Origin: Diprion similis
Taxonomy: Eukaryota > Arthropoda > Insecta > Hymenoptera > Diprionidae
Reading direction: 5' to 3'
Assembly (NCBI RefSeq): GCF_021155765.1
Contig: NC_060106.1
Location: 11,663,501 to 11,727,500, forward strand
Length of the DNA stretch: 64,000 nucleotides
This document shows, piece after piece, positions 1 to 53,099 of this stretch. The notes under the pieces are model-generated. The model searched no databases. It saw only the letters and a program-made list of their open reading frames with translations, and was not told the DNA's origin. A program made the translations under genes and the position numbers. Numbering within the stretch: the first letter of the stretch is position 1; the number at the start of each line of letters is the position of its first letter.

Positions 1-3000
1 GCGCTGCGAGCAACGGATCAAAAGTTACAGCCAAAAAACGAAAAACGTATTTTCTCAATTTTTCTGCTGCTGGTTTTTCCGTCGTCATTTCTCTGCTGTT
101 GGTCCTACGCCTTTTTTGTTGTGTTTTCTGAGTTCCTGGGCGTCCAATTAGTCTAGAGAGGGTCATACAAATCGATTCGGAGACGAAAAATTCTCGGCTC
201 CAAAAATGACCAAAAAAGTAAGGCTAACCCCTTTGGATTTTATGCGAAAATTTCGACGATTCTGACAAGTGCTGCAATAAATTCTTTCAAGCCCTATTCC
301 GACGTAATTTCGCGAGAGAAATCGATTGGCCGCAGTCCGAATGCGCTGCGAGCAACGGATCAAAAGTTACAGCCAAAAAACGAAAGACGTATTTTCTCAA
401 TTTTTCTGCTGCTGGTTTTTCCGTCGTAATTTCTTTGCTATTGGTCCTACGCCTTTTTTGTTGTGTTTGCTGAGTTCCTGGGCGTCCAATTAGTCTAGAA
501 AGGGTCATACAAATCGATTCGGAGACGAAAAATTCTCGGCTCCAAAAATGACCAAAAAAGTAGGGCTAACCCCTTTGGATTTTTTGCGAAAATTTCGACG
601 ATTCTGAAAAGTGCTGCAATAAATTCTTTCAAGCCCTATTCCGACGTAATTTTGCGAGAGAAATCGATTGACCGCAGTCCGAATGCGCTGCGAGCAACGG
701 ATCAAAAGTTACAGCCAAAAAACGAAAAACGTATTTTCTCAATTTTTCTGCTGCTGGTTTTTCCGTCGTCATTTCTCTTCTGTTGGTCCTACGCCTTTTT
801 TGTTGTGTTTTCTGAGTTCCTGGGCGTCCAATTAGTCTAGAAAGGGTCATACAAATCGATTCGGAGACGAAAAATTCTCGGCTCCAAAAATGACCAAAAA
901 AGTAAGGCTAACCCCTTTGGATTTTTTGCGAAAATTTCGACGATTCTGAAAAGTGCTGCAATAAATTCTTTCAAGCCCTATTCCGACGTAATTTTGAGAG
1001 AGAAATCGATTGGCCGCAGTCCGAATGCGCTGCGAGCAACGGATCAAAAGTTACAGCCAAAAAACGAAAGACGTATTTTCTCAATTTTTCTGCTGCTGGT
1101 TTTTCCGTCGTAATTTCTTTGCTATTGGTCCTACGCCTTTTTTGTTGTGTTTTCTGAGTTCCTGGGCGTCCAATTAGTCTAGAAAGGGTCATACAAATCG
1201 ATTAGGAGACGAAAAATTCTCGGCTCCAAAAATGACCAAAAAAGTAAGGCTAACCCCTTTGGATTTTTTGCGAAAATTTCGACGATTCTGACAAGTGCTG
1301 CAATAAATTCTTTCAAGCCCTATTCCGACGTAATTTCGCGAGAGAAATCGATTGGCCGCAGTCCGAATGCGCTGCGAGCAACGGATCAAAAGTTACAGCC
1401 AAAAAACGAAAGACGTATTTTCTCAATTTTTCTGCTGCTGGTTTTTCCGTCGTAATTTCTTTGCTATTGGTCCTACGCCTTTTTTGTTGTGTTTGCTGAG
1501 TTCCTGGGCGTCCAATTAGTCTAGAAAGGGTCATACAAATCGATTCGGAGACGAAAAATTCTCGGCTCCAAAAATGACCAAAAAAGTAGGGCTAACCCCT
1601 TTGGATTTTTTGCGAAAATTTCGACGATTCTGAAAAGTGCTGCAATAAATTCTTTCGAGCCCTATTCCGACGTAATTTTGCGAGAGAAATCGATTGACCG
1701 CAGTCCGAATGCGCTGCGAGCAACGGATCAAAAGTTACAGCCAAAAAACGAAAAACGTATTTTCTCAATTTTTCTGCTGCTGGTTTTTCCGTCGTCATTT
1801 CTCTGCTGTTGGTCCTACGCCTTTTTTGTTGTGTTTTCTGAGTTCCTGGGCGTCCAATTAGTCTAGAAAGGGTCATACAAATCGATTCGGAGACGAAAAA
1901 TTCTCGGCTCCAAAAATGACCAAAAAAGTAAGGCTAACCCCTTTGGATTTTTTGCGAAAATTTCGACGATTCTGAAAAGTGCTGCAATAAATTCTTTCAA
2001 GCCCTATTCCGACGTAATTTTGAGAGAGAAATCGATTGGCCGCAGTCCGAATGCGCTGCGAGCAACGGATCAAAAGTTACAGCCAAAAAACGAAAGACGT
2101 ATTTTCTCAATTTTTCTGCTGCTGGTTTTTCCGTCGTAATTTCTTTGCTATTGGTCCTACGCCTTTTTTGTTGTGTTTTCTGAGTTCCTGGGCGTCCAAT
2201 TAGTCTAGAAAGGGTCATACAAATCGATTCGGAGACGAAAAATTCTCGGCTCCAAAAATGACCAAAAAAGTAAGGCTAACCCCTTTGGATTTTTTGCGAA
2301 AATTTCGACGATTCTGAAAAGTGCTGCAATAAATTCTTTCAAGCCCTATTCCGACGTAATTTTGCGAGAGAAATCGATTGGCCGCAGTCCGAATGCGCTG
2401 CGAGCAACGGATCAAAAGTTACAGCCAAAAAACGAAAGACGTATTTTCTCAATTTTTCTGCTGCTGGTTTTTCCGTCGTAATTTCTTTGCTATTGGTCCT
2501 ACGCCTTTTTTGTTGTGTTTTCTGAGTTCCTGGGCGTCCAATTAGTCTAGAAAGGGTCATACAGATCGATTCGGAGACGAAAAATTCTCGGCTCCAAAAA
2601 TGACCAAAAAAGTAAGGCTAACCCCTTTGGATTTTTTGCGAAAATTTCGACGATTCTGAAAAGTGCTGCAATAGATTCCTTCAAGCCCTATTCCGACGTA
2701 ATTTTGCGAGAGAAATCGATTGACCGCAGTCCGAATGCGCTGCGAGCAACGGATCAAAAGTTACAGCCAAAAAACGAAAAACGTATTTTCTCAATTTTTC
2801 TGCTGCTGGTTTTTCCGTCGTCATTTCTCTTCTGTTGGTCCTACGCCTTTTTTGTTGTGTTTTCTGAGTTCCTGGGCGTCCAATTAGTCTAGAAAGGGTC
2901 ATACAAATCGATTCAGAGACGAAAAATTCTCGGCTCCGAAAATGACCAAAAAAGTAAGGCTAACCCCTTTGGATTTTTTGCGAAAATTTCGACGATTCGG

Positions 3001-6000
3001 AAAAGTGCTGCAATAAATTCTTTCAAGCCCTATTCCGACGTAATTTTGAGAGAGAAATCGGTTGGCCGCAGTCCGAATGCGCTGCGAGCAACGGATCAAA
3101 AGTTACAGCCAAAAAACGAAAGACGTATTTTCTCAATTTTTCTGCTGCTGGTTTTTCCGTCGTCATTTCTCTGCTGTTGGTCCTACGCCTTTTTTGTTGT
3201 GTTTTCTGAGTTCCTGGGCGTCCAATTAGTCTAGAAAGGGTCATACAAATCGATTCGGAGACGAAAAATTCTCGGCTCCAAAAATGACCAAAAAAGTAAG
3301 GCTAACCCCTTTGGATTTTTTGCGAAAATTTCGACGATTCTGAAAAGTGCTGCAATAAATTCTTTCAAGCCCTATTCCGACGTAATTTTGAGAGAGAAAT
3401 CGATTGGCCGCAGTCCGAATGCGCTGCGAGCAACGGATCAAAAGTTACAGCCAAAAAACGAAAGACGTATTTTCTCAATTTTTCTGCTGCTGGTTTTTCC
3501 GTCGTAATTTCTTTGCTATTGGTCCTACGCCTTTTTTGTTGTGTTTGCTGAGTTCCTGGGCGTCCAATTAGTCTAGAAAGGGTCATACAAATCGATTCGG
3601 AGACGAAAAATTCTCGGCTCCAAAAATGACCAAAAAAGTAGGGCTAACCCCTTTGGATTTTTTGCGAAAATTTCGACGATTCTGAAAAGTGCTGCAATAA
3701 ATTCTTTCAAGCCCTATTCCGACGTAATTTTGCGAGAGAAATCGATTGACCGCAGTCCGAATGCGCTGCGAGCAACGGATCAAAAGTTACAGCCAAAAAA
3801 CGAAAAACGTATTTTCTCAATTTTTCTGCTGCTGGTTTTTCCGTCGTCATTTCTCTTCTGTTGGTCCTACGCCTTTTTTGTTGTGTTTTCTGAGTTCCTG
3901 GGCGTCCAATTAGTCTAGAAAGGGTCATACAAATCGATTCGGAGACGAAAAATTCTCGGCTCCGAAAATGACCAAAAAAGTAAGGCTAACCCCTTTGGAT
4001 TTTTTGCGAAAATTTCGACGATTCGGAAAAGTGCTGCAATAAATTCTTTCAAGCCCTATTCCGACGTAATTTTGAGAGAGAAATCGGTTGGCCGCAGTCC
4101 GAATGCGCTGCGAGCAACGGATCAAAAGTTACAGCCAAAAAACGAAAGACGTATTTTCTCAATTTTTCTGCTGCTGTTTTTTCCGTCGTCATTTCTCTGC
4201 TGTTGGTCCTACGCCTTTTTTGTTGTGTTTTCTGAGTTCCTGGGCGTCCAATTAGTCTAGAAAGGGTCATACAAATCGATTCGGAGACGAAAAATTCTCG
4301 GCTCCAAAAATGACCAAAAAAGTAAGGCTAACCCCTTTGGATTTTTTGCGAAAATTTCGACGATTCTGAAAAGTGCTGCAATAAATTCTTTCAAGCCCTA
4401 TTCCGACGTAATTTTGAGAGAGAAATCGATTGGCCGCAGTCCGAATGCGCTGCGAGCAACGGATCAAAAGTTACAGCCAAAAAACGAAAGACGTATTTTC
4501 TCAATTTTTCTGCTGCTGGTTTTTCCGTCGTAATTTCTTTGCTATTGGTCCTACGCCTTTTTTGTTGTGTTTTCTGAGTTCCTGGGCGTCCAATTAGTCT
4601 AGAAAGGGTCATACAAATCGATTCGGAGACGAAAAATTCTCGGCTCCAAAAATGACCAAAAAAGTAAGGCTAACCCCTTTGGATTTTTTGCGAAAATTTC
4701 GACGATTCTGAAAAGTGCTGCAATAAATTCTTTCAAGCCCTATTCCGACGTAATTTTGCGAGAGAAATCGATTGGCCGCAGTCCGAATGCGCTGCGAGCA
4801 ACGGATCAAAAGTTACAGCCAAAAAACGAAAGACGTATTTTCTCAATTTTTCTGCTGCTGGTTTTTCCGTCGTAATTTCTTTGCTATTGGTCCTACGCCT
4901 TTTTTGTTGTGTTTTCTGAGTTCCTGGGCGTCCAATTAGTCTAGAAAGGGTCATACAGATCGATTCGGAGACGAAAAATTCTCGGCTCCAAAAATGACCA
5001 AAAAAGTAAGGCTAACCCCTTTGGATTTTTTGCGAAAATTTCGACGATTCTGAAAAGTGCTGCAATAGATTCCTTCAAGCCCTATTCCGACGTAATTTTG
5101 CGAGAGAAATCGATTGACCGCAGTCCGAATGCGCTGCGAGCAACGGATCAAAAGTTACAGCCAAAAAACGAAAAACGTATTTTCTCAATTTTTCTGCTGC
5201 TGGTTTTTCCGTCGTCATTTCTCTTCTGTTGGTCCTACGCCTTTTTTGTTGTGTTTTCTGAGTTCCTGGGCGTCCAATTAGTCTAGAAAGGGTCATACAA
5301 ATCGATTCAGAGACGAAAAATTCTCGGCTCCGAAAATGACCAAAAAAGTAAGGCTAACCCCTTTGGATTTTTTGCGAAAATTTCGACGATTCGGAAAAGT
5401 GCTGCAATAAATTCTTTCAAGCCCTATTCCGACGTAATTTTGAGAGAGAAATCGGTTGGCCGCAGTCCGAATGCGCTGCGAGCAACGGATCAAAAGTTAC
5501 AGCCAAAAAACGAAAGACGTATTTTCTCAATTTTTCTGCTGCTGGTTTTTCCGTCGTCATTTCTCTGCTGTTGGTCCTACGCCTTTTTTGTTGTGTTTTC
5601 TGAGTTCCTGGGCGTCCAATTAGTCTAGAAAGGGTCATACAAATCGATTCGGAGACGAAAAATTCTCGGCTCCAAAAATAACCAAAAAAGTAAGGCTAAC
5701 CCCTTTGGATTTTTTGCGAAAATTTCGACGATTCTGAAAAGTGCTGCAATAAATTCTTTCAAGCCCTATTCCGACGTAATTTTGAGAGAGAAATCGATTA
5801 GCCGCAGTCCGAATGCGCTGCGAGCAACGGATCAAAAGTTACAGCCAAAAAACGAAAGACGTATTTTCTCAATTTTTCTGCTGCTGGTTTTTCCGTCGTA
5901 ATTTCTTTGCTATTGGTCCTACGCCTTTTTTGTTGTGTTTTCTGAGTTCCTGGGCGTCCAATTAGTCTAGAAAGGGTCATACAAATCGATTCGGAGACGA

Positions 6001-9000
6001 AAAATTCTCGGCTCCAAAAATAACCAAAAAAGTAAGGCTAACCCCTTTGGATTTTTTGCGAAAATTTCGACGATTCTGAAAAGTGCTGCAATAAATTCTT
6101 TCAAGCCCTATTCCGACGTAATTTTGAGAGAGAAATCGATTAGCCGCAGTCCGAATGCGCTGCGAGCAACGGATCAAAAGTTACAGCCAAAAAACGAAAG
6201 ACGTATTTTCTCAATTTTTCTGCTGCTGGTTTTTCCGTCGTAATTTCTTTGCTATTGGTCCTACGCCTTTTTTGTTGTGTTTTCTGAGTTCCTGGGCGTC
6301 CAATTAGTCTAGAAAGGGTCATACAAATCGATTTGGAGACGAAAAATTCTCAGCTCCAAAAATGACCAAAAAAGTAAGGCTAACCCCTTTGGATTTTTTG
6401 CGAAAATTTCGACGATTCTGAGAAGTGCTGCAATAAATTCTTTCAAGCCCTATTCCGACGTAATTTTGCGAGAGAAATCGATTGACCGCAGTCCGAATGC
6501 GCTGCGAGCAACGGATCGAAAGTTACAGCCAAAAAACGAAAGACGTATTTTCTCAATTTTTCTGCAGCTGGTTTTTCCGTCGTAATTTCTTTGCTGTTGG
6601 TCCTACGCCTTTTTTGTTGTGTTTTCTGAGTTCCCGGGCGTCCAATTAGTCTAGAAAGGGTCATACAAATCGATTCGGAGACGAAAAATTCTCGGCTCCA
6701 AAAATGACCAAAAAAGTAAGGCTAACCCCTTTGGATTTTTTGCGAAAATTTCGACGATTCTGAAAAGTGCTGCAATAAATTCTTTCAAGCCCTATTCCGA
6801 CGTAATTTTGAGAGAGAAATCGATTGGCCGCAGTCCGAATGCGCTGCGAGCAACGGATCAAAAGTTACAGCCAAAAAACGAAAGACGTATTTTCTCAATT
6901 TTTCTGCTGCTGGTTTTTCCGTCGTCATTTCTCTGCTGTTGGTCCTACGCCTTTTTTGTTGTGTTTTCTGAGTTCCTGGGCGTCCAATTAGTCTAGAAAG
7001 GGTCATACAAATCGATTCGGAGACGAAAAATTCTCGGCTCCAAAAATGACCAAAAAAGTAAGGCTAACCCCTTTGGATTTTTTGCGAAAATTTCGACGAT
7101 TCTGAAAAGTGCTGCAATAAATTCTTTCAAGCCCTATTCCGACGTAATTTAGCGAGAGAAATCGATTGACCGCAGTCCGAATGCGCTGCGAGCAACGGAT
7201 CAAAAGTTACAGCCAAAAAACGAAAAACGTATTTTCTCAATTTTTCTGCTGCTGGTTTTTCCGTCGTCATTTCTCTGCTGTTGGTCCTACGCCTTCTTTG
7301 TTGTGTTTTCTGAGTTCCTGGGCGTCCAATTAGTCTAGAAAGGGTCATACAAATCGATTCGGAGACGAAAAATTCTCGACTCCAAAAATGACCAAAAAAG
7401 TAAGGCTAACCCCTTTGGATTTTTTGCGAAAATTTCGACGATTCTGAAAAGTGCTGCAATAAATTCTTGCAAGCCCTATTCCGACGTAATTTTGCGAGAG
7501 AAATCGATTGGCCGCAGTCCGAATGCGCTGCGAGCAACGGATCAAAAGTTACAGCCAAAAAACGAAAGACGTATTTTCTCAATTTTTCTGCTGCTGGTTT
7601 TTCCGTCGTAATTTCTTTGCTATTGGTCCTACGCCTTTTTTGATGTGTTTGCTGAGTTCCTGGGCGTCCAATTAGTCTAGAAAGGGTCATACAAATCGAT
7701 TCGGAGACGAAAAATTCTCGGCTCCAAAAATGACCAAAAAAGTAAGGCTAACCCCTTTGGATTTTTTGCGAAAATTTCGACGATTCTGAAAAGTGCTGCA
7801 ATAAATTCTTTCAAGCCCTATTCCGACGTAATTTTGAGAGAGAAATCGATTGGCCGCAGTCCGAATGCGCTGCGAGCAACGGATCAAAAGTTACAGCCAA
7901 AAAACGAAAGACGTATTTTCTCAATTTTTCTGCTGCTGGTTTTTCCGTCGTAATTTCTTTGCTATTGGTCCTACGCCTTTTTTGTTGTGTTTTCTGAGTT
8001 CCTGGGCGTCCAATTAGTCTAGAAAGGGTCATACAAATCGATTCGGAGACGAAAAATTCTCGGCTTCAAAAATGACCAAAAAAGTAAGGCTAACCCCTTT
8101 GAATTTTTTGCGAAAATTTCGACGATTCTGAAAAGTGCTGCAATAAATTCTTTCAAGCCCTATTCCGACGTAATTTCGCGAGAGAAATCGATTGGCCGCA
8201 GTCCGAATGCGCTGCGAGCAACGGATCAAAAGTTACAGCCAAAAAACGAAAGACGTATTTTCTCAATTTTTCTGCTGCTGGTTTTTCCGTCGTTATTTCT
8301 TTGCTGTTGGTCCTACGCCTTTTTTGTTGTGTTTTCTGAGTTCCTGGGCGTCCAATTAGTCTAGAAAGGGTCATACAAATCGATTCGGAGACGAAAAATT
8401 CTCGGCTCCAAAAATGACCAAAAAAGTAAGGCTAACCCCTTTGGATTTTTTGCGAAAATTTCGACGATTCTGAAAAGTGCTGCAATAAATTCTTTCAAGC
8501 CCTATTCAGACGTAATTTCGCGAGAGAAATCGATTGGCCGCAGTCCGAATGCGCTGCGAGCAACGGATCAAAAGTTACAGCCAAAAAACGAAAGACGTAT
8601 TCTCTCAATTTTTCTGCTGCTGGTTTTTTCGTCGTAATTTCTTTGCTATTGGTCCTACGCCTTTTTTGTTGTGTTTGCTGAGTTCCTGGGCGTCCAATTA
8701 GTCTAGAAAGGGTCATACAAATCGATTCGGAGACGAAAACTTCTCGACTCCAAAAATGACCAAAAAAGTAAGGCTAACCCCTTTGGATTTTTTGCGAAAA
8801 TTTCGACGATTCTGAAAAGTGCTGCAATAAATTCTTTCAAGCCCTATTCCGACGTAATTTTGCGAGAGAAATCGATTGGCCGCAGTCCGAATGCGCTGCG
8901 AGCAACGGATCAAAAGTTACAGCCAAAAAACGAAAAACGTATTTTCTCAATTTTTCTGCTGCTGGTTTTTCCGTCGTAATTTCTTTGCTATTGGTCCTAC

Positions 9001-12000
9001 GCCTTTTTTGTTGTGTTTTCTGAGTTCCTGGGCGTCCAATTAGTCTAGAAAGGGTCATACAAATCGATTCGGAGACGAAAAATTCTCGACTCCAAAAATG
9101 ACCAAAAAAGTAAGGCTAACCCCTTTGGATTTTTTGCGAAAATTTCGACGATTCTGAAAAGTGCTGCAATAAATTCTTTCAAGCCCTATTCCGACGTAAT
9201 TTCGCGAGAGAAATCGATTGGCCGCAGTCCGAATGCGCTGCGAGCAACGGATCAAAAGTTACAGCCAAAAAACGAAAGACGTATTTTCTCAATTTTTCTG
9301 CTGCTGGTTTTTCCGTCGTAATTTCTTTGCTATTGGTCCTACGCCTTTTTTGTTGTGTTTGCTGAGTTCCTGGGCGTCCAATTAGTCTAGAAAGGGTCAT
9401 ACAAATCGATTCGGAGACGAAAAATTCTCGGCTCCAAAAATGACCAAAAAAGTAAGGCTAACCCCGTTGGATTTTTTGCGAAAATTTCGACGATTCTGAA
9501 AAGTGCTGCAATAAATTCTTTCAAGCCCTATTCTGACGTAATTTCGCGAGAGAAATCGATTGGCCGCAGTCCGAATGCGCTGCGAGCAACGGATCAAAAG
9601 TTACAGCCAAAAAACGAAAGACGTATTTTCTCAATTTTTCTGCTGCTGGTTTTTCCGTCGTAATTTCTTTGCTGTTGGTCCTACGCCTTTTTTGTTGTGT
9701 TTTCTGAGTTCCTGGGCGTCCAATTAGTCTAGAAAGGGTCATACAAATCGATTCGGAGACGAAAAATTCTCGGCTCCAAAAATGACCAAAAAAGTAAGGC
9801 TAACCCCTTTGGATTTTTTGCGAAAATTTCGACGATTCTGAAAAGTGCTGCAATAAATTCTTTCAAGCCCTATTCAGACGTAATTTCGCGAGAGAAATCG
9901 ATTGGCCGCAGTCCGAATGCGCTGCGAGCAACGGATCAAAAGTTACAGCCAAAAAACGAAAGACGTATTCTCTCAATTTTTCTGCTGCTGGTTTTTTCGT
10001 CGTAATTTCTTTGCTATTGGTCCTACGCCTTTTTTGTTGTGTTTGCTGAGTTCCTGGGCGTCCAATTAGTCTAGAAAGGGTCATACAAATCGATTCGGAG
10101 ACGAAAACTTCTCGACTCCAAAAATGACCAAAAAAGTAAGGCTAACCCCTTTGGATTTTTTGCGAAAATTTTGACGATTCTGAAAAGTGCTGCAATAAAT
10201 TCTTTCAAGCCCTATTCCGACGTAATTTTGCGAGAGAAATCGATTGGCCGCAGTCCGAATGCGCTGCGAGCAACGGATCAAAAGTTACAGCCAAAAAACG
10301 AAAAACGTATTTTCTCAATTTTTCTGCTGCTGGTTTTTCCGTCGTAATTTCTTTGCTATTGGTCCTACGCCTTTTTTGTTGTGTTTTCTGAGTTCCTGGG
10401 CGTCCAATTAGTCTAGAAAGGGTCATACAAATCGATTCGGAGACGAAAAATTCTCGACTCCAAAAATGACCAAAAAAGTAAGGCTAACCCCTTTGGATTT
10501 TTTGCGAAAATTTCGACGATTCTGAAAAGTGCTGCAATAAATTCTTTCAAGCCCTATTCCGACGTAATTTCGCGAGAGAAATCGATTGGCCGCAGTCCGA
10601 ATGCGCTGCGAGCAACGGATCAAAAGTTACAGCCAAAAAACGAAAGACGTATTTTCTCAATTTTTCTGCTGCTGGTTTTTCCGTCGTAATTTCTTTGCTA
10701 TTGGTCCTACGCCTTTTTTGTTGTGTTTGCTGAGTTCCTGGGCGTCCAATTAGTCTAGAAAGGGTCATACAAATCGATTCGGAGACGAAAAATTCTCGGC
10801 TCCAAAAATGACCAAAAAAGTAAGGCTAACCCCGTTGGATTTTTTGCGAAAATTTCGACGATTCTGAAAAGTGCTGCAATAAATTCTTTCAAGCCCTATT
10901 CTGACGTAATTTCGCGAGAGAAATCGATTGGCCGCAGTCCGAATGCGCTGCGAGCAACGGATCAAAAGTTACAGCCAAAAAACGAAAGACGTATTTTCTC
11001 AATTTTTCTGCTGCTGGTTTTTTCGTCGTAATTTCTTTGCTATTGGTCCTACGCCTTTTTTGTTGTGTTTGCTGAGTTCCTGGGCGTCCAAGTAGTCTAG
11101 AAAGGGTCATACAAATCGATTCGGAGACGAAAAATTCTCGGCTCCAAAAATGACCAAAAAAGTAAGGCTAACCCCTTTGGATTTTTTGCGAAAATTTCGA
11201 CGATTCTGAAAAGTGCTGCAATAAATTCTTTCAAGCCCTATTCCGACGTAATTTTGCGAGAGAAATCGATTGACCGCAGTCCGAATGCGCTGCGAGCAAC
11301 GGATCAAAAGTTACACTCAAAACACGAAAGACGTATTTTCTCAATTTTTCTGCTGCTGGTTTTTCCGTCGTAATTTCTTTGCTATTGGTCCTACGCCTTT
11401 TTTGTTGTGTTTTCTGAGTTCCTGGGCGTCCAATTAGTCTAGAAAGGGTCATACAAATCGATTCGGAGACGAAAAATTCTCGGCTCCAAAAATGACCAAA
11501 AAAGTAAGGCTAACCCCTTTGGATTTTTTGCGAAAATTTCGACGATTCTGAAAAGTGCTGCAATAAATTCTTTCAAGCCCTATTCCGACGTAATTTTGCG
11601 AGAGAAATCGATTGACCGCAGTCCGAATGAGCTGCGAGCAACGGATCAAAAGTTACAGCCAAAAAACGAAAAACGTATTTTCTCAATTTTTCTGCTGCTG
11701 GTTTTTCCGTCGTCATTTCTCTGCTGTTGGTCCTACGCCTTTTTTGTTGTGTTTTCTGAGTTCCTGGGCGTCCAATTAGTCTAGAAAGGGTCATACAAAT
11801 CGATTCGGAGACGAAAAATTCTCGGCTCCAAAAATGACCAAAAAAGTAAGGCTAACCCCTTTGGATTTTTTGCGAAAATTTCGACGATTCTGAAAAGTGC
11901 TGCAATAAATTCTTTCAAGCCCTATTCCGACGTAATTTTGAGAGAGAAATCGATTGGCCGCAGTCCGAATGCGCTGCGAGCAACGGATCAAAAGTTACAG

Positions 12001-15000
12001 CCAAAAAACGACAGACGTATTTTCTCAATTTTTCTGCTGCTGGTTTTTCCGTCGTAATTTCTTTGCTATTGGTCCTACGCCTTTTTTGTTGTGTTTTCTG
12101 AGTTCCTGGGCGTCCAATTAGTCTAGAAAGGGTCATACAAATCGATTCGGAGACGAAAAATTCTCGGCTCCAAAAATGACCAAAAAAGTAAGGCTAACCC
12201 CTTTGGATTTCTTGCGAAAATTTCGACGATTCTGAAAAGTGCTGCAATAAATTCTTTCAAGCCCTATTCCGACGTAATTTTGCGAGAGAAATCGATTGGC
12301 CGCAGTCCGAATGCGCTGCGAGCAACGGATCAAAAGTTACAGCCAAAAAACGAAAGACGTATTTTCTCAATTTTTCTGCAGCTGGTTTTTCCGTCGTAAT
12401 TTCTTTGCTATTGGTCCTACGCCTTTTTTAATGTGTTTTCTGAGTTCCTGGGCGTCCAATTAGTCTAGAAAGGGTCATACAAATCGATTCGGAGACGAAA
12501 AATTCTCGGCTCCAAAAATGACCAAAAAAGTAAGGCTAACCCCTTTGGATTTTCTGCGAAAATTTCGACGATTCTGAAAAGTGCTGCAATAAATTCTTTC
12601 AAGCCCTATTCCGACGTAATTTTGCGAGAGAAATCGATTGGCCGCAGTCCGAATGCGCTGCGAGCAACGGATCAAAAGTTACAGCCAAAAAACGGAAGAC
12701 GTATTTTCTGAATTTTTCCGCTGCTGGTTTTTCCGTCGTCATTTCTCTGCTGTTGGTCCTACGCCTTTTTTGTTGTGTTTTCTGAGTTCCTGGGCGTCCA
12801 ATTAGTCTAGAAAGGGTCATACAAATCGATTCGGAGACGAAAAATTCTCGGCTCCAAAAATGACCAGAAAAGTAAGGCTAACCCCTTTGGATTTTTTGCG
12901 AAAATTTCGACGATTCTGAAAAGTGCTGCAATAAATTCTTTCAAGCCCTATTCCGACGTAATTTTGCGAGAGAAATCGATTGGCCGCAGTCCGAATGCGC
13001 TGCGAGCAACGGATCAAAAGTTACAGCCAAAGAACGAAAGACGTATTTTCTCAATTTTTCTGCTGCTGGTTTTTCCGTCGTCATTTCTCTGCTGTTAGTC
13101 CTACGCCTTTTTTGTTGTGTTTTCTGAGTTCCTGGGCGTCCAATTGGTCTAGAAAGGGTAATACAAATCGATTCGGAGACGAAAAATTCTCGGCTCCAAA
13201 AATGACCAAAAAAGTAAGGCTAACCCCTTTGGATTTTTTGCGAAAATTTCGACGATTCTGAAAAGTGCTGCAATAAATTCTTTCAAGCCCTATTCCGACG
13301 TAATTTTGCGAGAGAAATCGATTGACCGCAGTCCGAATGCGCTGCGAGCAACGGATCAAAAGTTACAGCCAAAAAACGAAAGACGTATTTTCTCAATTTT
13401 TCTGCAGCTGGTTTTTCCGTCGTAATTTCTTTGCTATTGGTCCTACGCCTTTTTTAATGTGTTTTCTGAGTTCCTGGGCGTCCAATTAGTCTAGAAAGGG
13501 TCATACAAATCGATTCGGAGACGAAAAATTCTCGGCTGCAAAAATGACCAAAAAAGTAAGGCTAACCCCTTTGGATTTTCTGCGAAAATTTCGACGATTC
13601 TGAAAAGTGCTGCAATAAATTCTTTCAAGCCCTATTCCGACGTAATTTTGCGAGAGAAATCGATTGGCCGCAGTCCGAATGCGCTGCGAGCAACGGATCA
13701 AAAGTTACAGCCAAAAAACGGAAGACGTATTTTCTGAATTTTTCCGCTGCTGGTTTTTCCGTCGTCATTTCTCTGCTGTTGGTCCTACGCCTTTTTTGTT
13801 GTGTTTTCTGAGTTCCTGGGCGTCCAATTAGTCTAGAAAGGGTCATACAAATCGATTCGGAGACGAAAAATTCTCGGCTCCAAAAATGACCAGAAAAGTA
13901 AGGCTAACCCCTTTGGATTTTTTGCGAAAATTTCGACGATTCTGAAAAGTGCTGCAATAAATTCTTTCAAGCCCTATTCCGACGTAATTTTGCGAGAGAA
14001 ATCGATTGGCCGCAGTCCGAATGCGCTGCGAGCAACGGATCAAAAGTTACAGCCAAAGAACGAAAGACGTATTTTCTCAATTTTTCTGCTGCTGGTTTTT
14101 CCGTCGTCATTTCTCTGCTGTTAGTCCTACGCCTTTTTTGTTGTGTTTTCTGAGTTCCTGGGCGTCCAATTGGTCTAGAAAGGGTAATACAAATCGATTC
14201 GGAGACGAAAAATTCTCGGCTCCAAAAATGACCAAAAAAGTAAGGCTAACCCCTTTGGATTTTTTGCGAAAATTTCGACGATTCTGAAAAGTGCTGCAAT
14301 AAATTCTTTCAAGCCCTATTCCGACGTAATTTTGCGAGAGAAATCGATTGACCGCAGTCCGAATGCGCTGCGAGCAACGGATCAAAAGTTACAGCCAAAA
14401 AACGAAAAACGTATTTTCTCAATTTTTCTGCTGCTGGTTTTTCCGTCGTCATTTCTCTGCTGTTGGTCCTACGCCTTTTTTGTTGTGTTTTCTGAGTTCC
14501 TGGGCGTCCAATTAGTCTAGAAAGGGTCATACAAATCGATTCGGAGACGAAAAATTCTCGGCTCCAAAAATGACCAAAAAAGTAAGGCTAACCCCTTTGG
14601 ATTTTTTGCGAAAATTTTGACGATTCTGAAAAGTGCTGCAATAAATTCTTTCAAGCCCTATTCCGACGTAATTTTGAGAGAGTAATCGATTGGCCGCAGT
14701 CCGAATGCGCTGCGAGCAACGGATCAAAAGTTACAGCCAAAAAACGAAAGACGTATTTTCTCAATTTTTCTGCTGCTGGTTTTTCCGTCGTAATTTCTTT
14801 GCTATTGGTCCTACGCCTTTTTTGTTGTGTTTTCTGAGTTCCTGGGCGTCCAATTAGTCTAGAAAGGGTCATACAAATCGATTCGGAGACGAAAAATTCT
14901 CGGCTCCAAAAATGACCAAAAAAGTAAGGCTAACCCCTTTGGATTTTTTGCGAGAATTTCGACGATTCTGAAAAGTGCTGCAATAAATTCTTTCAAGCCC

Positions 15001-18000
15001 TATTCCGACGTAATTTTGCGAGAGAAATCGATTGACCGCAGTCCGAATGCGCTGCGAGCAACGGATCAAAAGTTACAGCCAGAAAACGAAAAACGTATTT
15101 TCTCAATTTTTCTGCTGCTGGTTTTTCCGTCGTCATTTCTCTTCTGTTGGTCCTACGCCTTTTTTGTTGTGTTTTCTGAGTTCCTGGGCGTCCAATTAGT
15201 CTAGAAAGGGTCATACAAATCGATTCGGAGACGAAAAATTCTCGGCTCCAAAAATGACCAAAAAAGTAAGGCTAACCCCTTTGGATTTTTCGCGAAAATT
15301 TCGACGATTCTGAAAAGTGCTGCAATAAATTCTTTCAAGCCCTATTCCGACGTAATTTTGAGAGAGAAATCGATTGGCCGCAGTCCGAATGCGCTGCGAG
15401 CAACGGATCAAAAGTTACAGCCAAAAAACGAAAGACGTATTTTCTCAATTTTTCTGCTGCTGGTTTTTCTGTCGTAATTTCTTTGCTATTGGTCCTACGC
15501 CTTTTTTGTTGTGTTTTCTGAGTTCCTGGGCGTCCAATTAGTCTAGAAAGGGTCATACAAATCGATTCGGAGACGAAAAATTCTCGGCTCCAAAAATGAC
15601 CAAAAAAGTAAGGCTAACCCTTTTGGATTTTTTGCGAAAATTTCGACGATTCTGAAAAGTGCTGCAATAAATTCTTTCAAGCCCTATTCCGACGTAATTT
15701 TGCGAGAGAAATCGATTGACCGCAGTCCGAATGCGCTGCGAGCAACGGATCGAAAGTTACAGCCAAAAAACGAAAAACGTATTTCCTCAATTTTTCTGCT
15801 GCTGGTTTTTCCGTCGTCATTTCTCTGCTGTTGGTCCTACGCCTTTTTTGTTGTGTTTTCTGAGTTCCTGGGCGTCCAATTAGTCTAGAAAGAGTCATAC
15901 AAATCGATTCGGAGACGAAAAATTCTCGGCTCCAAAAATGACCAAAAAAGTAAGGCTAACCCCTTTGGATTTTTTGCGAAAATTTCGACGATTCTGAAAA
16001 GTGCTGCAATAAATTCTTTCAAGCCCTATTCCGACGTAATTTTGAGAGAGAAATCGATTGGCCGCAGTCCGAATGCGCTGCGAGCAACGGATCACAAGTT
16101 ACAGCCAAAAAACGAAAGACGTATTTTCTCAATTTTTCTGCTGCTGGTTTTTCCGTCGTAATTTCTTTGCTATTGGTCCTACGCCTTTTTTGTTGTGTTC
16201 TCTGAGTTCCTGGGCGTCCAATTAGTCTATAAAGGGTCATACAAATCGATTCGGAGACGAAAAATTCTCGGCTCCAAAAATGACCAAAAAAGTAAGGCTA
16301 ACCCTTTTGGATTTTTTGCGAAAATTTCGACGATTCTGAAAAGTGCTGCAATAAATTCTTTCAAGCCCTATTCCGACGTAATTTTGCGAGAGAAATCGAT
16401 TGACCGCAGTCCGAATGCGCTGCGAGCAACGGATCAAAAGTTACAGCCAAAAAACGAAAAACGTATTTTCTCAATTTTTCTGCTGCTGGTTTTTCCGTCG
16501 TCATTTCTCTGCTGTTGGTCCTACGCCTTTTTTGTTGTGTTTTCTGAGTTCCTGGGCGTCCAATTAGTCTAGAAAGGGTCATACAAATCGATTCGGAGAC
16601 GAAAAATTCTCGGCTCCAAAAATGACCAAAAAAGTAAGGCTAACCCCTTTGGATTTTTTGCGAAAATTTTGACGATTCTGAAAAGTGCTGCAATAAATTC
16701 TTTCAAGCCCGATTCCGACGTAATTTTGCGAGAGAAATCGATTGACCGCAGTCCGAATGCGCTGCGAGCAACGGATCAAAAGTTACAGCCAAAAAACGAA
16801 AGACGTATTTTCTCAATTTTTCTGCTGCTGGTTTTTCCGTCGTAATTTCTTTGCTATTGGTCCTACGCCTTTTTTGTTGTGTTTTCTGAGTTCCTGGGCG
16901 TCCAATTAGTCTAGAAAGGGTCATACAAATCGATTCGGAGACGAAAAATTCTCGGCTCCAAAAATGACCAAAAAAGTAAGGCTAACCCCTTTGGATTTTT
17001 TGCGAAAATTTCGACGATTCTGAAAAGTGCTGCAATAAATTCTTTCAAGCCCTATTCCGACGTAATTTTGCGAGAGAAATCGATTGACCGCAGTCCGAAT
17101 GCGCTGCGAGCAACGGATCAAAAGTTACAGCCAAAAAACGAAAAACGTATTTCCTCAATTTTTCTGCTGCTGGTTTTTCCGTCGTCATTTCTCTGCTGTT
17201 GGTCCTACGCCTTTTTTGTTGTGTTTTCTGAGTTCCTGGGCGTCCAATTAGTCTAGAAAGAGTCATACAAATCGATTCGGAGACGAAAAATTCTCGGCTC
17301 CAAAAATGACCAAAAAAGTAAGGCTAACCCCTTTGGATTTTTTGCGAAAATTTCGACGATTCTGAAAAGTGCTGCAATAAATTCTTTCAAGCCCTATTCC
17401 GACGTAATTTTGAGAGAGAAATCGATTGGCCGCAGTCCGAATGCGCTGCGAGCAACGGATCAAAAGTTACAGCCAAAAAACGAAAGACGTATTTTCTCAA
17501 TTTTTCTGCTGCTGGTTTTTCCGTCGTAATTTCTTTGCTATTGGTCCTACGCCTTTTTTGTTGTGTTTTCTGAGTTCCTGGGCGTCCAATTAGTCTAGAA
17601 AGGGTCATACAAATCGATTCGGAGACGAAAAATTCTCGGCTCTAAAAATGACCAAAAAAGTAAGGCTAACCCCTTTGGATTTTTTGCGAAAATTTCGACG
17701 ATTCTGAAAAGTGCTGCAATAAATTCTTTCAAGCCCTATTCCGACGTAATTTTGCGAGAGAAATCGATTGACCGCAGTCCGAATGCGCTGCGAGCAACGG
17801 ATCAAAAGTTACAGCCAAAAAACGAAAAACGTATTTTCTCAATTTTTCTGCTGCTGGTTTTTCCGTCGTCATTTCTCTGCTGTTGGTCCTACGCGTTTTT
17901 TGTTGTGTTTTCTGAGTTCCTGGGCGTCCAATTAGTCTAGAAAGGGTCATACAAATCGATTCGGAGACGAAAAATTCTCCGCTCCAAAAATGACCAAAAA

Positions 18001-19875
18001 AGTAAGGCTAACCCCTTTGGATTTTTTGCGAAAATTTCGACGATTCTGAAAAGTGCTGCAATAAATTCTTTCAAGCCCTATTCCGACGTAATTTTGCGAG
18101 AGAAATCGATTGGCAGCAGTCCGAATGCGCTGCGAGCAACGGATCAAAAGTTACAGCCAAAAAACGAAAGACGTATTTTCTCAATTTTTCTGCTGCTGGT
18201 TTTTCCGTCGTCATTTCTCTGCTGTTAGTCCTACGCCTTTTTTGTTGTGTTTTCTGAGTTCCTGGGCGTCCAATTGGTCTAGAAAGGGTCATACAAATCG
18301 ATTCGGAGACAAAAAATTCTCGGCTCCAAAAATGACCAAAAAAGTAAGGCTAACCCCTTTGGATTTTTTGCGAAAATTTCGACGATTCTGAAAAGTGCTG
18401 CAATAAATTCTTTCAAGCCCTATTCCGACGTAATTTCGCGAGAGAAATCGATTGGCCGCAGTCCGAATGCGCTGCGAGCAACGGATCAAAAGTTACAGCC
18501 AAAAAACGGAAGACGTATTTTCTCAATTTTTCTGCTGCTGGTTTTTCCGTCGTCATTTCTCTGCTCTTGGTCCTACGCCTTTTTTGTTGTGTTTTCTGAG
18601 TTCCTGGGCGTCCAATTAGTCTAGAAAGGGTCATACAAATTGATTCGGAGACAAAAAATTCTCGGCTCCAAAAATGACCAAAAAAGTAAGGCTAACCCCT
18701 TTGGATTTTTTGCGAAAATTTCGACGATTCTGAAAAGTGCTGCAATAAATTCTTTCAAGCCCTATTCCGACGTAATTTTGCGAGAGAAATCGATTGGCCG
18801 CAGTCCGAATGCGCTGCGAGCAACGGATCAAAAGTTACAGCCAAAAAACGAAAGACGTATTTTCTCAATTTTTCTGCTGCTGGTTTTTCCGTCGTCATTT
18901 CTCTGCTGTTGGTCCTACGCCTTTTTTGTTGTGTTTACTGAGTTCCTGGGCGTCCAATTAGTCTAGAAAGGGTCATACAAATCGATTCGGAGACAAAAAA
19001 TTCTCGGCTCCAAAAATGACCAAAAAAGTAAGGCTAACCCCTTCGGATTTTTTGCGAAAATTCCGACGATTCTGAAAAGTGCTGCAATAAATTCTTTCAA
19101 GCCCTATTCAGACGTAATCTTGCGAGAGAAATCGATTGGCCGCAGTCCGAATGCGCTGCGAGCAACGGATCAGAAGTTACAGCCAAAAAACGAAAGACGT
19201 ATTTTCTCAATTTTTCTGCTGCTGGTTTTTCCATCGCAATTTCTTTGCTATTGGTCCTACGCTTGTTTTGTTGTGTTTTCTGAGTTCCTGGGCGTCCAAT
19301 TAGTCTAGAAAGGGTCATACAAATTGATTCGGAGACAAAAAATTCTCGGCTCCAAAAATGACCAAAAAAGTAAGGCTAACCCCTTTGGATTTTTTGCGAA
19401 AATTTCGACGATTCTGAAAAGTGCTGCAATAAATTCTCTCAAGCCCTATTCCGACGTAATTTTGCGAGAGAAATCGATTGGCCGCAGTCCGAATGCGCTG
19501 CGAGCAACGGATCAAAAGTTACAGCCAAAAAACGAAAGACGTATTTTCTCAATTTTTCTGCTGCTGCTTTTCCCGTCGTCATTTCTCTGCTGTTGGTCCT
19601 ACGCCTTTTTTGTTGTGTTTTCTGAGTTCCTGGGCGTCCATTCAGTCTGGAAAGGGTCATACAAATCGATTCGGAGACGAAAATTTCTTGGCTCCAAAAA
19701 TGACCGAAAAAGTAAGGCTAACCCTTTTGGATTTTTCGCGAAAATTCAGACGATTCTGAAAAGTGCTGCAATAAATTCTTTCACGCACTATTCCGACGTA
19801 ATTTCGTGAGAGAAATCGATTGAGCGTAGGCCGAATACTCCGCGAGCATTGGGTTAGGAGGTACAGCTACATTGA
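1..19875. repeat. 342-bp satellite DNA array, about 58 head-to-tail monomers
   Basis: The same 342-bp unit recurs from the first base. Taking the 10-mer GCGCTGCGAG as unit start, it begins at 1, 343, 685 and so on; the degraded equivalent of unit 59 is still in phase at 19,837, so about 58 units pass with no net insertion or deletion. Monomers differ by scattered substitutions. Two recurrent states are GTCGTAATTTCTTTGC versus GTCGTCATTTCTCTGC, and the CGAGAG or GAGAG motif is preceded by TTTTG, TTTCG or similar. The 9-mer AAATCGATT occurs twice per unit, 150 bp apart, which is not a half period, so the unit is not an obvious dimer of 171. The array continues beyond the left edge. Short open frames recur on both strands in every unit, but their differences change amino acids freely, so I treat them as non-coding. 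Family identity is unknown to me; satellites of this kind usually lie in pericentromeric or other heterochromatin. Confidence 0.97.
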
Positions 19876-20239
19876 TCGCAATCTGCAGAGGGATTTTTCT
19901 AACGGTGGGGAAGATAAATCAGAAAATCACAGTTACTATCAGTAATCGTTTATTTAACGAGCCTTAGTACCAGTACAAGAGGTTGGGCGTCAGTGTCTCG
20001 TAATTCACCAAGTTTTCACATAATATAAAAGTATTGACAAAAGAATTGTAGCACGTAGTATGAACGAACATTGAACAATGTGTCTGAGTAATAAAATTGG
20101 AAGATGGTACGCAATTTATATCACCTTCAGCAGAATAAGAAAAACATTATATCAGACAGTCATTGTCACAGACACTTTGTATAGTTCACTCAATAAATGC
20201 TGATGTATCGTATTTATTCCACGTCATCTGGACCAAAAT
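19876..20239. other. Spacer between satellite edge and remnant monomer
   Basis: After the last in-phase satellite similarity (to about 19,875) the sequence becomes unrelated AT-rich DNA. I see no coding frame, RNA gene or repeat in it. Confidence 0.5.
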
Positions 20240-20550
20240 AAACTAAAGTATTGAATTTTTCCATAATTAATACATATTCGCTTTGCCGCCTTCCAACGAC
20301 GATTAAAACGGCTGTTTTGGAATACTCGAAATCCAATCAGTCTAGAAAGAGTCGTACGATTGCATTCTGAGTGAAAATTTGATGCTTCAGCAATCCTGAA
20401 ACAAATAAAGCTTGCCCTCCTCGATTTTTGGTGAAAACTTCGACAATTCGACAAAATGATGGAAATGTATGATAATGATAAATTTACCAGAGAAATGGAT
20501 TGCGCTTAGTTTGAATACGCTGCGAGCAACGGATCAAGCGTTACAGTCCA
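20240..20550. repeat. Isolated diverged satellite monomer remnant
   Basis: A partial, strongly mutated copy of the 342-bp unit in the same orientation as the array. Clear anchors are TCCAATCAGTCTAGAAAGAG at 20,332 (array: TCCAATTAGTCTAGAAAGGG), AGAGAAATGGATTG near 20,490, and ACGCTGCGAGCAACGGATCA at 20,517. Order and spacing of the anchors match the unit with small length changes, unlike the indel-free array. It ends near 20,550. It is out of the selection or homogenisation that keeps the main array uniform. Confidence 0.85.
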
Positions 20551-21618
20551 GCTCTTTGGGAAGAATTCACACTACACCTACGCCTACCGAGACCAAGGGC
20601 TCAGCTGACGGACGTGTCTAGTGGGACAGCCTGTACTTTAAATTCTATTTCTGTTTCCAGTTATAATTAACCACTGAAGAAAGCGCTGCGTGCTGTAGGC
20701 ACAAGACCACTCGTGCCGGGTGTTCGTTAGTCCGCGGCGAATAGGCGTTTGGGTTCTTCGTCCGTGAAGGACTCGAGTTGGTAAATTAGACTTATGTCTT
20801 TCCACCGGTATGTAGGAATTAAGTTCGTCGTGACGGTGTATTCAGTCTAATCGGTGAGTCGTAACGAAACTGTGTGATTGAGGCATCTCATTGTGCCTAA
20901 TTATATATAGATTTCGAACTGTAGCTAGACCGTCCGCCAGAATTTCCTCCAAAAATTTGTATTCGAATAAAATAGTTGATGATATAATCGGTCAGTGTAT
21001 CTCGTGCAGATTCCTTCTGTGAGGTATAATCATAAAAGTGGCTCGCAGGGTGGGCTATCTCAAGTCTAAGATATTTCGTGATTACTCACGAAATATTTAC
21101 CAATTGGAATGAAAGGGTATTTTCGGGTAACCGTGATCCTATAGAATTGGTGACATACACTTTTGCAATTTTTCCAAAATTGTATATGAAAATTGAGAAA
21201 CAGTGACAGTGAGGTTTATTTAAGCCACATAGCCTTATCGCATCAGCACTGATAACTACGCATACATTCGTAATTAGTTGTTTCATGCTAGTGGACTGAA
21301 GTTCGCAGTCTTGATAGATGGAAAAGTAGTCACGATTATGCAAAGACTAAGGATCTGCCGGAGGATTGTAATAATACAAGTCGGCTCAATCTCTCGCGAT
21401 CACGAAACAATTGATGGATTTACGAGCGCGTTTGAGGTATTTTAAATATTCTCGTGTTTTTGCAGTATAGGGAGTAGCCGTAAATCAGATAGATTTACGA
21501 TAAAATATGCATTTATTATATGGCACACAATTTGGTAGATAACTTTTATGGGACAGCAGGTATAGTTATCATCGATCAAATACGCGCCTCGTCCGGTTGA
21601 CTGCCGAAAGATACAGCG
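20551..21618. other. Intergenic region, 5' flank of the SmydA gene
   Basis: No supported coding frame or RNA gene. The 20,640-20,920 part is richer in G and C than its surroundings and has several short CG-containing words, but I could not assign it to a known element. The segment just before 21,619 should hold the promoter and 5' leader of the SmydA gene; I see no convincing core promoter motif. Confidence 0.4.
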
Positions 21619-23439
21619 ATGGGGTCTGATAACGTCGAGGGTGCCTGTGCGATCTGCGAAAAACTTGCGACGCTGAGATGCAGTAATTGCAAGGCGCAAT
21701 TCTATTGCACCAAGGAACATCAGAAGGATGACTGGTCCCGGCACAAGACCGCTTGTAGATCATGGGAGATCCGCGAGAGTCGGGAACTGGGTCGGCACTT
21801 GTTGGCCGCCAGGGACTTGGACGCCGGTGACCTCGTGGTCTGCGAACCGCCTTTGGTCTGGGGTCCAGCACCCCATTCTCTCGAGCGGGTCTGCGTTGGT
21901 TGCGGAAGTCGACAGACCCACGGTAGGTGTCCAGGGTGTACCTGGCCCGCTTGCAGCCCCCGATGCCTGGGCCTGATGGACCACGACCGGCACGGAACGG
22001 AGTGTGCCATTCTGGCCAAATGCAGGATATTGCCAAGGTACGTACGGTCGAGCTTTTTGCAGACTTTCAAAGTGATTAATGTCGAATGGAACTTGTTCTG
22101 ATCACACCAGGACATATCGCCGGTCAAAATCTAAATATTCTTTCGTTGAGAAATGTAGTTGAGCAATAAGTCAAATACGAAATAAATTTTCAGATGCGAC
22201 CTCCTATTGCCTCTACGTTTCTTGCTGCTTCGGAGGCGAAGCCCGAAACGTTGGGCTTTGCTGGAGGCCCTTCAAAGCCACGATGACTCACGTGGTCCTG
22301 GCACCGAAGCCCACGAGGAAATGCTCAGCCTGAGAGAACACTTGGCACCGTTTCTGGCAATGGACCAGGCGGCAGCTGACGCATTTCCTCGGGTCTGTGG
22401 TCTCATCGACGTCAACGCGCTGGAGACAAACCCACCCGAGGGTTCTGCTGCTCTCTACGAAACGGCCTGCCTCCTCGAGCACAACTGTATCGCAAACACG
22501 AGGCACAGCTTCTCCATAGACGCCAAAGGTCGGCCCTGCATCACCGTTCGCACCGTTACCACCGTCCGGAAGTCAGTTCAGGAAACCACCACAAGTCTCG
22601 ATTTTTATTTGTGATAGTTTTCTGTCATTCGTCAGTCAATATACATGCATTTACCCTCCACCAGGGGAGAGCACCTTAGCACCACCTACACGCACGCCTT
22701 GTGGGCAACCCGGAGTCGCCGCGAACACCTCCTTGCAACGAAGTACTTCTCATGTCGTTGTCAACGTTGCGCTGACCCCACAGAATTAGGAACACATCTA
22801 GGCACTTTAGTCTGCCCATGTGGTCCAGGCCTTGTCTTGCCCAGAGATCCCTTGGACTCGGAGACCGAGTGGTTTTGCAATGCTTGCCCGGGGGTGCTGA
22901 CCTCAATGGAAGTGATGCAGCTGACAGAGAGACTCGGCGAGGAAGTTGAAGGTGCCATGGAGCTCGCGAGTCGAAATGCCCTTGCGGATTTATTATCCAG
23001 GTAAGGATGGTTTGGAAAAAATGTCCTCTCATTCAGCTGTCTAAGAATTTGATGATAGGTCAGGCTCTTCGAGGAAGAAGAATGCCGATTTTTCTCTATT
23101 CAAGAACTTGGTTTCTCGCTTTGTTTCAGACTACAAGTACTACTGCATCCTGGGCATCAACACTGTCTCACTGTTGGCCATTCATTGATGCAGCTTTTGC
23201 CCCCTGATGACCATCAGAAGGCCGAAATTTGCAGACGTGTGATACAGACAACCCAAGTGCTAGACCCTTACGGCAGTCGCCTCGCTCTCTACACAGCGGT
23301 GGCCCTTAGGGAGCTATCATTGGCCCCAGGGGAAGACCGCGTGGACCTGCTCTGCAGGGCAACCAAACTTTTAAAACTTGAGCCGCCGAACAGCCCCGGA
23401 GAGAAACTTCTCAGGCTGCTAGAAGCGGAACTGCTTTAG
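21619..23439 (+). CDS. SmydA-type SET and MYND domain protein (480 aa, 4 exons)
   Basis: Exons 21,619-22,037, 22,194-22,571, 22,665-23,000 and 23,130-23,439; all introns are GT-AG and the joined frame is 481 codons with stop. Residues 10-46 form a MYND zinc finger (C10, C13, C21, C24, C30, H34, H42, C46) with the usual YCTKEHQ and RHK stretches. A split SET domain follows: GRHLLAARDLDAGD in exon 1, the LLEHNC-IANTRHSF core in exon 2, GEHLSTTYTHALW in exon 3, then a cysteine-rich post-SET segment (FSCRCQRCADP, CPCG, FCNAC). Exon 4 encodes a helical tail beginning LQVLLHPGHQHC. This is the arthropod SmydA layout, the family of Drosophila msta. Members are presumed protein lysine methyltransferases or protein-binding adaptors, in nucleus or cytoplasm. 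The SET core reads EHNC-IAN rather than NHSC-xPN, so catalysis is uncertain. The start was chosen because the MYND finger begins nine residues later, as in the family. It lies beside the satellite and converges on the GPCR gene. Confidence 0.9.
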
Positions 23440-48172: not shown

Positions 48173-48549
<377 letters not shown>

Positions 48550-52800: not shown

Positions 52801-52945
52801 CGCAGACCAAGGTGACGTCGACGAGCGTTTCCGCGTGAAGGAGGGCCTCGAATGCCTGCAGGATGTGCGCCTGATGATTGTTCCACCTCAACGAGTAGTG
52901 GGACTGGAGGCCCATCTCGTCAGGACTCTCCGCGGCGCTGGACAT
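49818..52945 (-). CDS. lov: BTB/POZ and Psq-domain transcription factor, jim lovell-like (672 aa)
   Basis: Minus-strand coding exons 52,945-52,755 and 51,645-49,818, split by a 1,109-bp GT-AG intron inside the BTB domain (LSAC|SPFFERIF); the frame closes at 673 codons with stop. BTB domain, residues about 16-125: HYSLRWNNHQAHILQAFEAL, VDVTLVCAETSLRAHKVV, then PCKHPVIVLKDFPG, DFMYRGEV, AAESLQVRGL. A long low-complexity middle is rich in P, S, H and Q, with a glutamine run near residue 260. An AT-hook-like GRPKG precedes a Psq helix-turn-helix at about residues 489-545 (RSWTNAELTEALQHVW, MTTSQASRIFGIPYNSLL, KYGKSLKLEQLRRDC). Such proteins are nuclear DNA-binding factors of the TTK-type BTB group; Drosophila lov acts in neurons and affects behaviour. 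The BTB sequence favours lov over bab or ribbon, from memory. The ATG is the first in frame in its exon, with A at -3; no ATG precedes it up to the splice acceptor. Confidence 0.85.
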
Positions 52946-53097
52946 CTTTCCTCTTCGTCGTCGGCACGGAGCGTCGCGAAGCCACCGTTTCCCCTTCCTT
53001 GTCGCCTTCACACCTCGTCTTATTCTTTCTGATTTTTTTGCCTCTCTTCCATATATGCGGGCACGATCCGTCCTCACTGCTGCATCGGACGCCGTTT
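52946..53097 (-). other. 5' UTR part of the lov-like first coding exon
   Basis: On the minus strand a run of seven T ending in AG (acceptor at 53,098-53,099) precedes this stretch, which leads to the ATG at 52,945. It suggests at least one further, non-coding exon upstream, so the promoter lies to the right; I could not locate that exon. Confidence 0.45.
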
Positions 53098-53099
53098 CT

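Follow-up and report, generated by a model that had tools for sequence, protein, structure and literature searches.

The closest described systems are dispersed, partly euchromatic insect satellites. Array-dependent homogenisation is described for those of Tribolium castaneum and for the Drosophila 1.688 satellite in passages of a review (PMC10048060), and both concerted evolution and dispersed insect satellites are treated in parts of that review and of a second paper (PMC8122249). Primate alpha satellite has a 171-bp unit and, in New World monkeys, a 343-bp dimeric form, according to a section of PMC4053949 that also finds the length of centromere repeats not to be conserved across 282 species. 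Here we describe a family of 342-bp and related units from Diprion similis, one array of which runs into the window, by which we mean the whole stretch of 64,000 nucleotides that was analysed. This family resembles the satellites of Tribolium castaneum and Drosophila in that its noncoding tandem arrays are scattered over many sites, some of them close to genes, and differs from them in that the array on the window's contig (C2) has as many as 141 units of strikingly uniform length; the likeness is drawn from descriptions of the families. Literature searches found no published description traceable to the family. We regard it as a new family within a known kind of satellite, its one oddity being a possible depletion of indels.

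The 342-bp unit is like primate alpha satellite in length and in having an internal block structure. In contrast to alpha satellite, it has no 171-bp half-period (self-match of 0.30 at lag 171 vs 0.974 at lag 342, so that an alpha-satellite-like dimer of two 171-bp halves was rejected), and the window contains no exact CENP-B box (0.79 expected). The host also has an insect-type telomere repeat, with CCTAA/TTAGG at the starts of contigs C1, C2, C3 and C13, and a single centromere-like array per chromosome was not seen. The C2 array, which sits at 51% of its contig (11.65 of 22.78 Mb), may or may not be centromeric: the family lies at several places on each contig listed below, C2 included, and the array adjoins gene-bearing DNA. 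Given the (TTAGG)n telomeres and the lack of a 171-bp half-period, the match of 342 to 2 x 171 looks like a coincidence.

Extent, register and variation of the array

The part of the array that falls within the window is the following.

Positions 1 to 19,836, forward strand: 58 satellite units of 342 bp, arranged head to tail without any loss of register, which form the downstream end of an array of 141 units

The window edge cuts the array. Adjacent stretches contained 83 further units upstream in the same register, with the array starting 28.4 kb before the window, and the whole array spans C2:11,635,115-11,683,336 (141 units, 48,222 bp). Its last in-register base is window position 19,836 (58 x 342), after which comes the brief, degenerate beginning of a further unit. 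TRF reported a period of 342 over positions 1-19,848 of the window (58.0 copies, 97% matches, 0% indels), and over positions 1-19,875 the self-match seen at lag 342 dropped to ∼0.35 at lags 341 and 343. The earlier note had described about 58 monomers with zero net indels, and its coordinates and the lack of net indels were correct. We also looked for compensating indels unit by unit and saw none: 0 of the 141 C2 units had a gap in optimal global alignment to the consensus, and the MAFFT alignment of 139 anchor-to-anchor units was free of indels and 342 columns wide.

Sequence variation was counted in these 139 of the 141 units, the first and last being left out. The units had 114 variable columns and 133 substitution types (80 transitions and 53 transversions, 66 of the types seen once) and comprised 88 distinct sequences, with a mean identity to the consensus of 98.5% and a unit-to-unit identity inside the array of ∼97.5–98%. 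A change in length would be expected first at the eight A/T runs (five or six bases) and the single C run (four bases) of each unit, and no run-length change was seen at the A/T runs of the C2 units. All six frames of the consensus have at least one stop per unit; the unit is therefore noncoding, and a protein-coding tandem repeat (342 = 3 x 114) was ruled out. Being noncoding, arranged head to tail and present in many copies, the array and its family are satellite DNA.

Typical accurate long reads are shorter than the 48-kb array, which could on that account be a collapsed or over-corrected consensus produced by the assembly. However, errors in a consensus tend to appear as extra indels in A/T runs, and these were absent, while the units comprised 88 distinct sequences and no N occurred in the assembled stretches covering the array. 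Both sides have low-copy flank sequence, and the edge units are degraded, the first matching the consensus at 330 of 342 positions and the last at 319 of 342, instead of ending in a sharp break. An assembly artefact is thus hardly credible.

The family across the genome and its unit lengths

The genome comprises 269 Mb in 60 contigs; the 14 at the head of the list measure 10.9–28.0 Mb each, and C2, one of these, 22.78 Mb. Copies of the family were found at 5,483 places genome-wide with a 24-mer at up to 3 mismatches. At least 10 of the 14 large contigs carry it at several places each (C1, C2, C3, C4, C6, C8, C9, C10, C11, and C12), the other places on C2 being at 10.12, 10.50, 12.14, and 13.14 Mb. 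With arrays in many chromosomal places and several per chromosome, the family is a dispersed satellite. Among the smaller pieces of the assembly, contigs C15–C18 are exactly 125,000, 250,000, 125,000, and 2,500 bases long and look like cuts at fixed scaffolding bins.

Unit spacing was surveyed genome-wide from neighbouring pairs of exact matches to a 17-base anchor, for spacings of 312–373 bp only. Exactly 342 bp separated 1,013 anchor pairs, while 49 pairs were 343–373 bp apart (45 at 343 and 4 at 344), 109 were 317–341 bp apart (mostly 341 among the matches listed), and 4,692 were 312–316 bp apart (4,801 minus 109). Among the spacings surveyed, the commonest found for the family is ∼312 bp. 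Even within the 342 class, 158 of 1,036 pairs outside the C2 array have another length. Individual arrays had the following unit lengths, in bp.

C3:15.69 Mb: 343, 342 and 344 mixed
C10:4.42 Mb: 342 and 343 mixed
C3:11.27 Mb and C4:18.73-18.76 Mb: mostly 341
C11:4.65 Mb: one unit of 340
C1 array: 311, 312 and 313

The sister arrays are small samples of 12–22 units each, restricted to spacings of 300–360 bp between anchors that had at most 3 mismatches. Unit length is a local, array-specific property.

These lengths bear on the idea that selection or chromatin holds the unit at 342 bp, as two nucleosome repeats, with other lengths being removed. Zero indels in 141 units would be expected under such a regime, as would the pooled depletion reported below (8/378 vs 29/315 in the control) and the lack of gaps in a sampled 279-bp satellite, but a length of 279 bp corresponds neither to a single nucleosome repeat nor to a pair, and the family peaks at 312–316 bp rather than at 342 bp (4,692 vs 1,013 anchor pairs). 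Entire arrays at 341 or 343 bp and the deviating pairs of the 342 class also argue against it, as do the AA/TT/AT/TA periods of the consensus, which, in a comparison made with no null, were strongest at 12.7, 19, and 9 bp and not at ∼10 bp. We therefore consider selection on length very improbable. These results caution against inferring a functional length from the constancy of a single array, given that its sisters within the family differ in unit length.

The 312-bp and 342-bp forms of the unit differ by one segment.

Positions 46 to 75, forward strand, of the first unit, with a counterpart at the corresponding place of every other unit: 30-bp segment without counterpart in the 312-bp form, from the alignment of modal units

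The alignment of modal 312-bp (C1) and 342-bp (C2) units needs no gap other than this one of 30 bp, and the remaining sequence is 88.5% identical. Given that the segment resembles neighbouring sequence at 15 of 17 bases (a match without shuffle control), the difference likely reflects a short tandem duplication or its loss, in either direction. The earlier note's finding of no internal dimer stands for halves of 171 bp, while a short and diverged internal duplication had been overlooked.

A 19-mer within the 30-bp segment (consensus unit positions 51–69) is identical to part of the 279-bp satellite of the same genome, with a score of 38 vs a maximum of 28 in 200 shuffles. This second satellite was seen at the starts of contigs C8 and C12, having been sampled at contig starts only. 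It is like the 342-bp array in the exact 19-mer and in the lack of gaps in the sample (0 gaps and 42 substitution types in ∼15 copies), and unlike the 342-bp unit in the remaining sequence, where the next best local scores were at shuffle level and the two are otherwise unrelated. That it is gapless hints that tandem arrays in this genome may share a scarcity of indels.

Conserved functional boxes within the unit were considered and dropped, although one 19-base box is intact in an isolated decayed unit described below. Across six modal consensuses, 67 of the 342 compared columns were variable, the longest invariant run was 30 (permutation p = 0.079), and the variance among bins gave p = 0.26; the 133 variant types of the C2 array were evenly spread along the unit (p = 0.89).

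Probable turnover of whole units and an apparent scarcity of indels

Exact, non-overlapping repeats occur within the C2 array, of 2,474 bp at an offset of 17 units, of 2,150 and 1,599 bp at 31 units, and of 1,502 bp at 7 units, and combinations of variants recur in blocks along it. No regular higher-order period was found in the array, identity being nearly equal at the best unit offsets of 41 (0.9820), 3 (0.9811), 31 (0.9811), and 10 (0.9806). Consensus identities between six sampled arrays ranged from 85.3 to 98.8%, and those of the C2 or C8 consensus to the consensuses of C1, C3, C10, and C11 from 85.3 to 94.7%. Units are thus more alike within than between arrays, the pattern of concerted evolution, with the exception of C8:8.96 Mb, whose consensus is 98.8% identical to that of C2. 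This exception to array-specific divergence indicates that transfer of the family between chromosomes happens as well.

The units in the window are the right-hand end of an array of a dispersed noncoding insect satellite, in which unequal exchange and the duplication of blocks have very probably kept the units of each array alike. Blocks of whole units would have been duplicated and exchanged repeatedly, by unequal exchange, gene conversion, or similar turnover; such block copying would propagate the length of a single founder along the array, in steps of whole units only, and an array young enough for the rate at which it gains indels would then show a constant unit length. The earlier note had left the choice between homogenisation and a length constraint such as nucleosome phasing. 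The long exact repeats of up to 2,474 bp spanning several units, the variant blocks without a single period, the array subfamilies, and the degraded right edge fit turnover of whole-unit blocks and favour the former, whereas the commonest family length of ∼312 bp and the lengths of 340, 341, 343, and 344 bp in other arrays speak against the latter. As the process we infer unequal exchange or conversion, in preference to the reinsertion of rolling circles or to slippage of blocks during replication, and we infer that selection on length need not be invoked.

What plain turnover leaves unexplained is the pooled scarcity of indels relative to a control. In the sampled sister arrays, the numbers of indel and substitution types were 0/47 (C8), 1/43 (C11), 2/59 (C1), 3/47 (C3), and 2/49 (C10), which gives 8/245 for the five arrays pooled vs 0/133 for C2. 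Fisher tests of C2 against the sister arrays gave p = 0.055 (two-sided) and 0.033 (one-sided), and the Poisson chance of zero C2 indels at the sister-array rate was 0.013. On these values, the C2 array lies marginally at the low edge of the family for indels and not outside it. The satellite arrays taken together (8/378) were also compared with non-satellite repeats near the window (29 gaps/315 mismatches), with an odds ratio of 4.35 and p = 1.3e-4, and for C2 alone the comparison gave p = 6.8e-5. Per substitution, satellite indels look ∼4-fold rarer than in this control, which is small and imperfect: it comprises only six alignments of 70–84% identity, two of which overlap at a single place, and it is more diverged than the satellite. 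Given these properties, we give the control little weight.

One way to account for such a depletion is a mutational or repair bias, in which recombination in tandem arrays or heteroduplex repair rejects partners mismatched in length and satellite length drifts slowly as a class. The ∼4-fold pooled depletion, the unchanged lengths in C2 of the eight A/T runs that each unit contains, and the lack of gaps in an unrelated 279-bp satellite are consistent with this bias. However, the control has few alignments and a higher divergence than the satellite, and indels do arise and spread in the sister arrays, where three of the eight indel types are common to several units (2, 6, and 4 units); we therefore regard a bias acting on satellites as a class as improbable. 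That the tandem arrays of this genome in particular are shielded from small indels and not from substitutions, with exchange or heteroduplex repair rejecting partners of unequal length, seems unlikely to us. If true, the copying process itself would keep the unit length of satellites, without selection for nucleosome spacing. Should the depletion hold with a proper control, the length-proofing effect of repeat exchange would become directly measurable, given that one genome offers many arrays in which substitutions and indels can be counted side by side.

Edges of the array and neighbouring DNA

To the right of the array, the window contains the following features.

Positions 19,837 to ∼20,430, forward strand: right flank, with a degenerate unit start at its onset, recurring at C2:13.139 Mb
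Positions 20,233 to 20,550, forward strand: isolated decayed satellite unit, its BLAST stretch 68% identical and its last part nearly intact
Positions 21,601 to 22,101: MYND finger, from the domain scan
Positions 49,818 to 53,125: BTB and Psq domains, from the domain scan

The right flank recurs at ∼71% identity and on the other strand at C2:13.139 Mb (within C2:13138000-13140500), ∼1.46 Mb away, where it again adjoins a tandem array of these repeats, here of the form without the 30-bp segment, and meets the unit at the same phase. This right-junction pattern was found only at these two places, and a third, weak match of the flank lies at C11:7,757,532-7,757,719 (68%). We take the pair to be probably an old inverted duplication or rearrangement and not a mobile module. 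A mobile-element carrier was rejected on the count of two places, a count to be read with the caveat that very diverged modules are hard to detect. The decayed unit keeps 19 bases fully identical to the array consensus (window positions 20,519–20,537).

On the left, a dispersed repeat lies ∼270 bp from the array (C2:11634518-11634846) and has 16 other places at 69–79% identity; the left flank has a weak similarity to the unit, with a score of 53 vs 39 in 30 shuffles. The domain scan took in ten of the 59 open frames that were listed to the right of the array. The gene pieces that it found lie within window positions 21,601–53,125 and include, in addition to the MYND and BTB/Psq domains, two stretches that resemble a rhodopsin-family receptor below the Pfam cut-off. 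Given the MYND, receptor-like, and BTB/Psq pieces, the array borders gene-bearing DNA. The same side of the window also contains an ATT microsatellite at positions 48,173–48,549 (377 bp, 125.7 copies of 3 bp, 92% matches).
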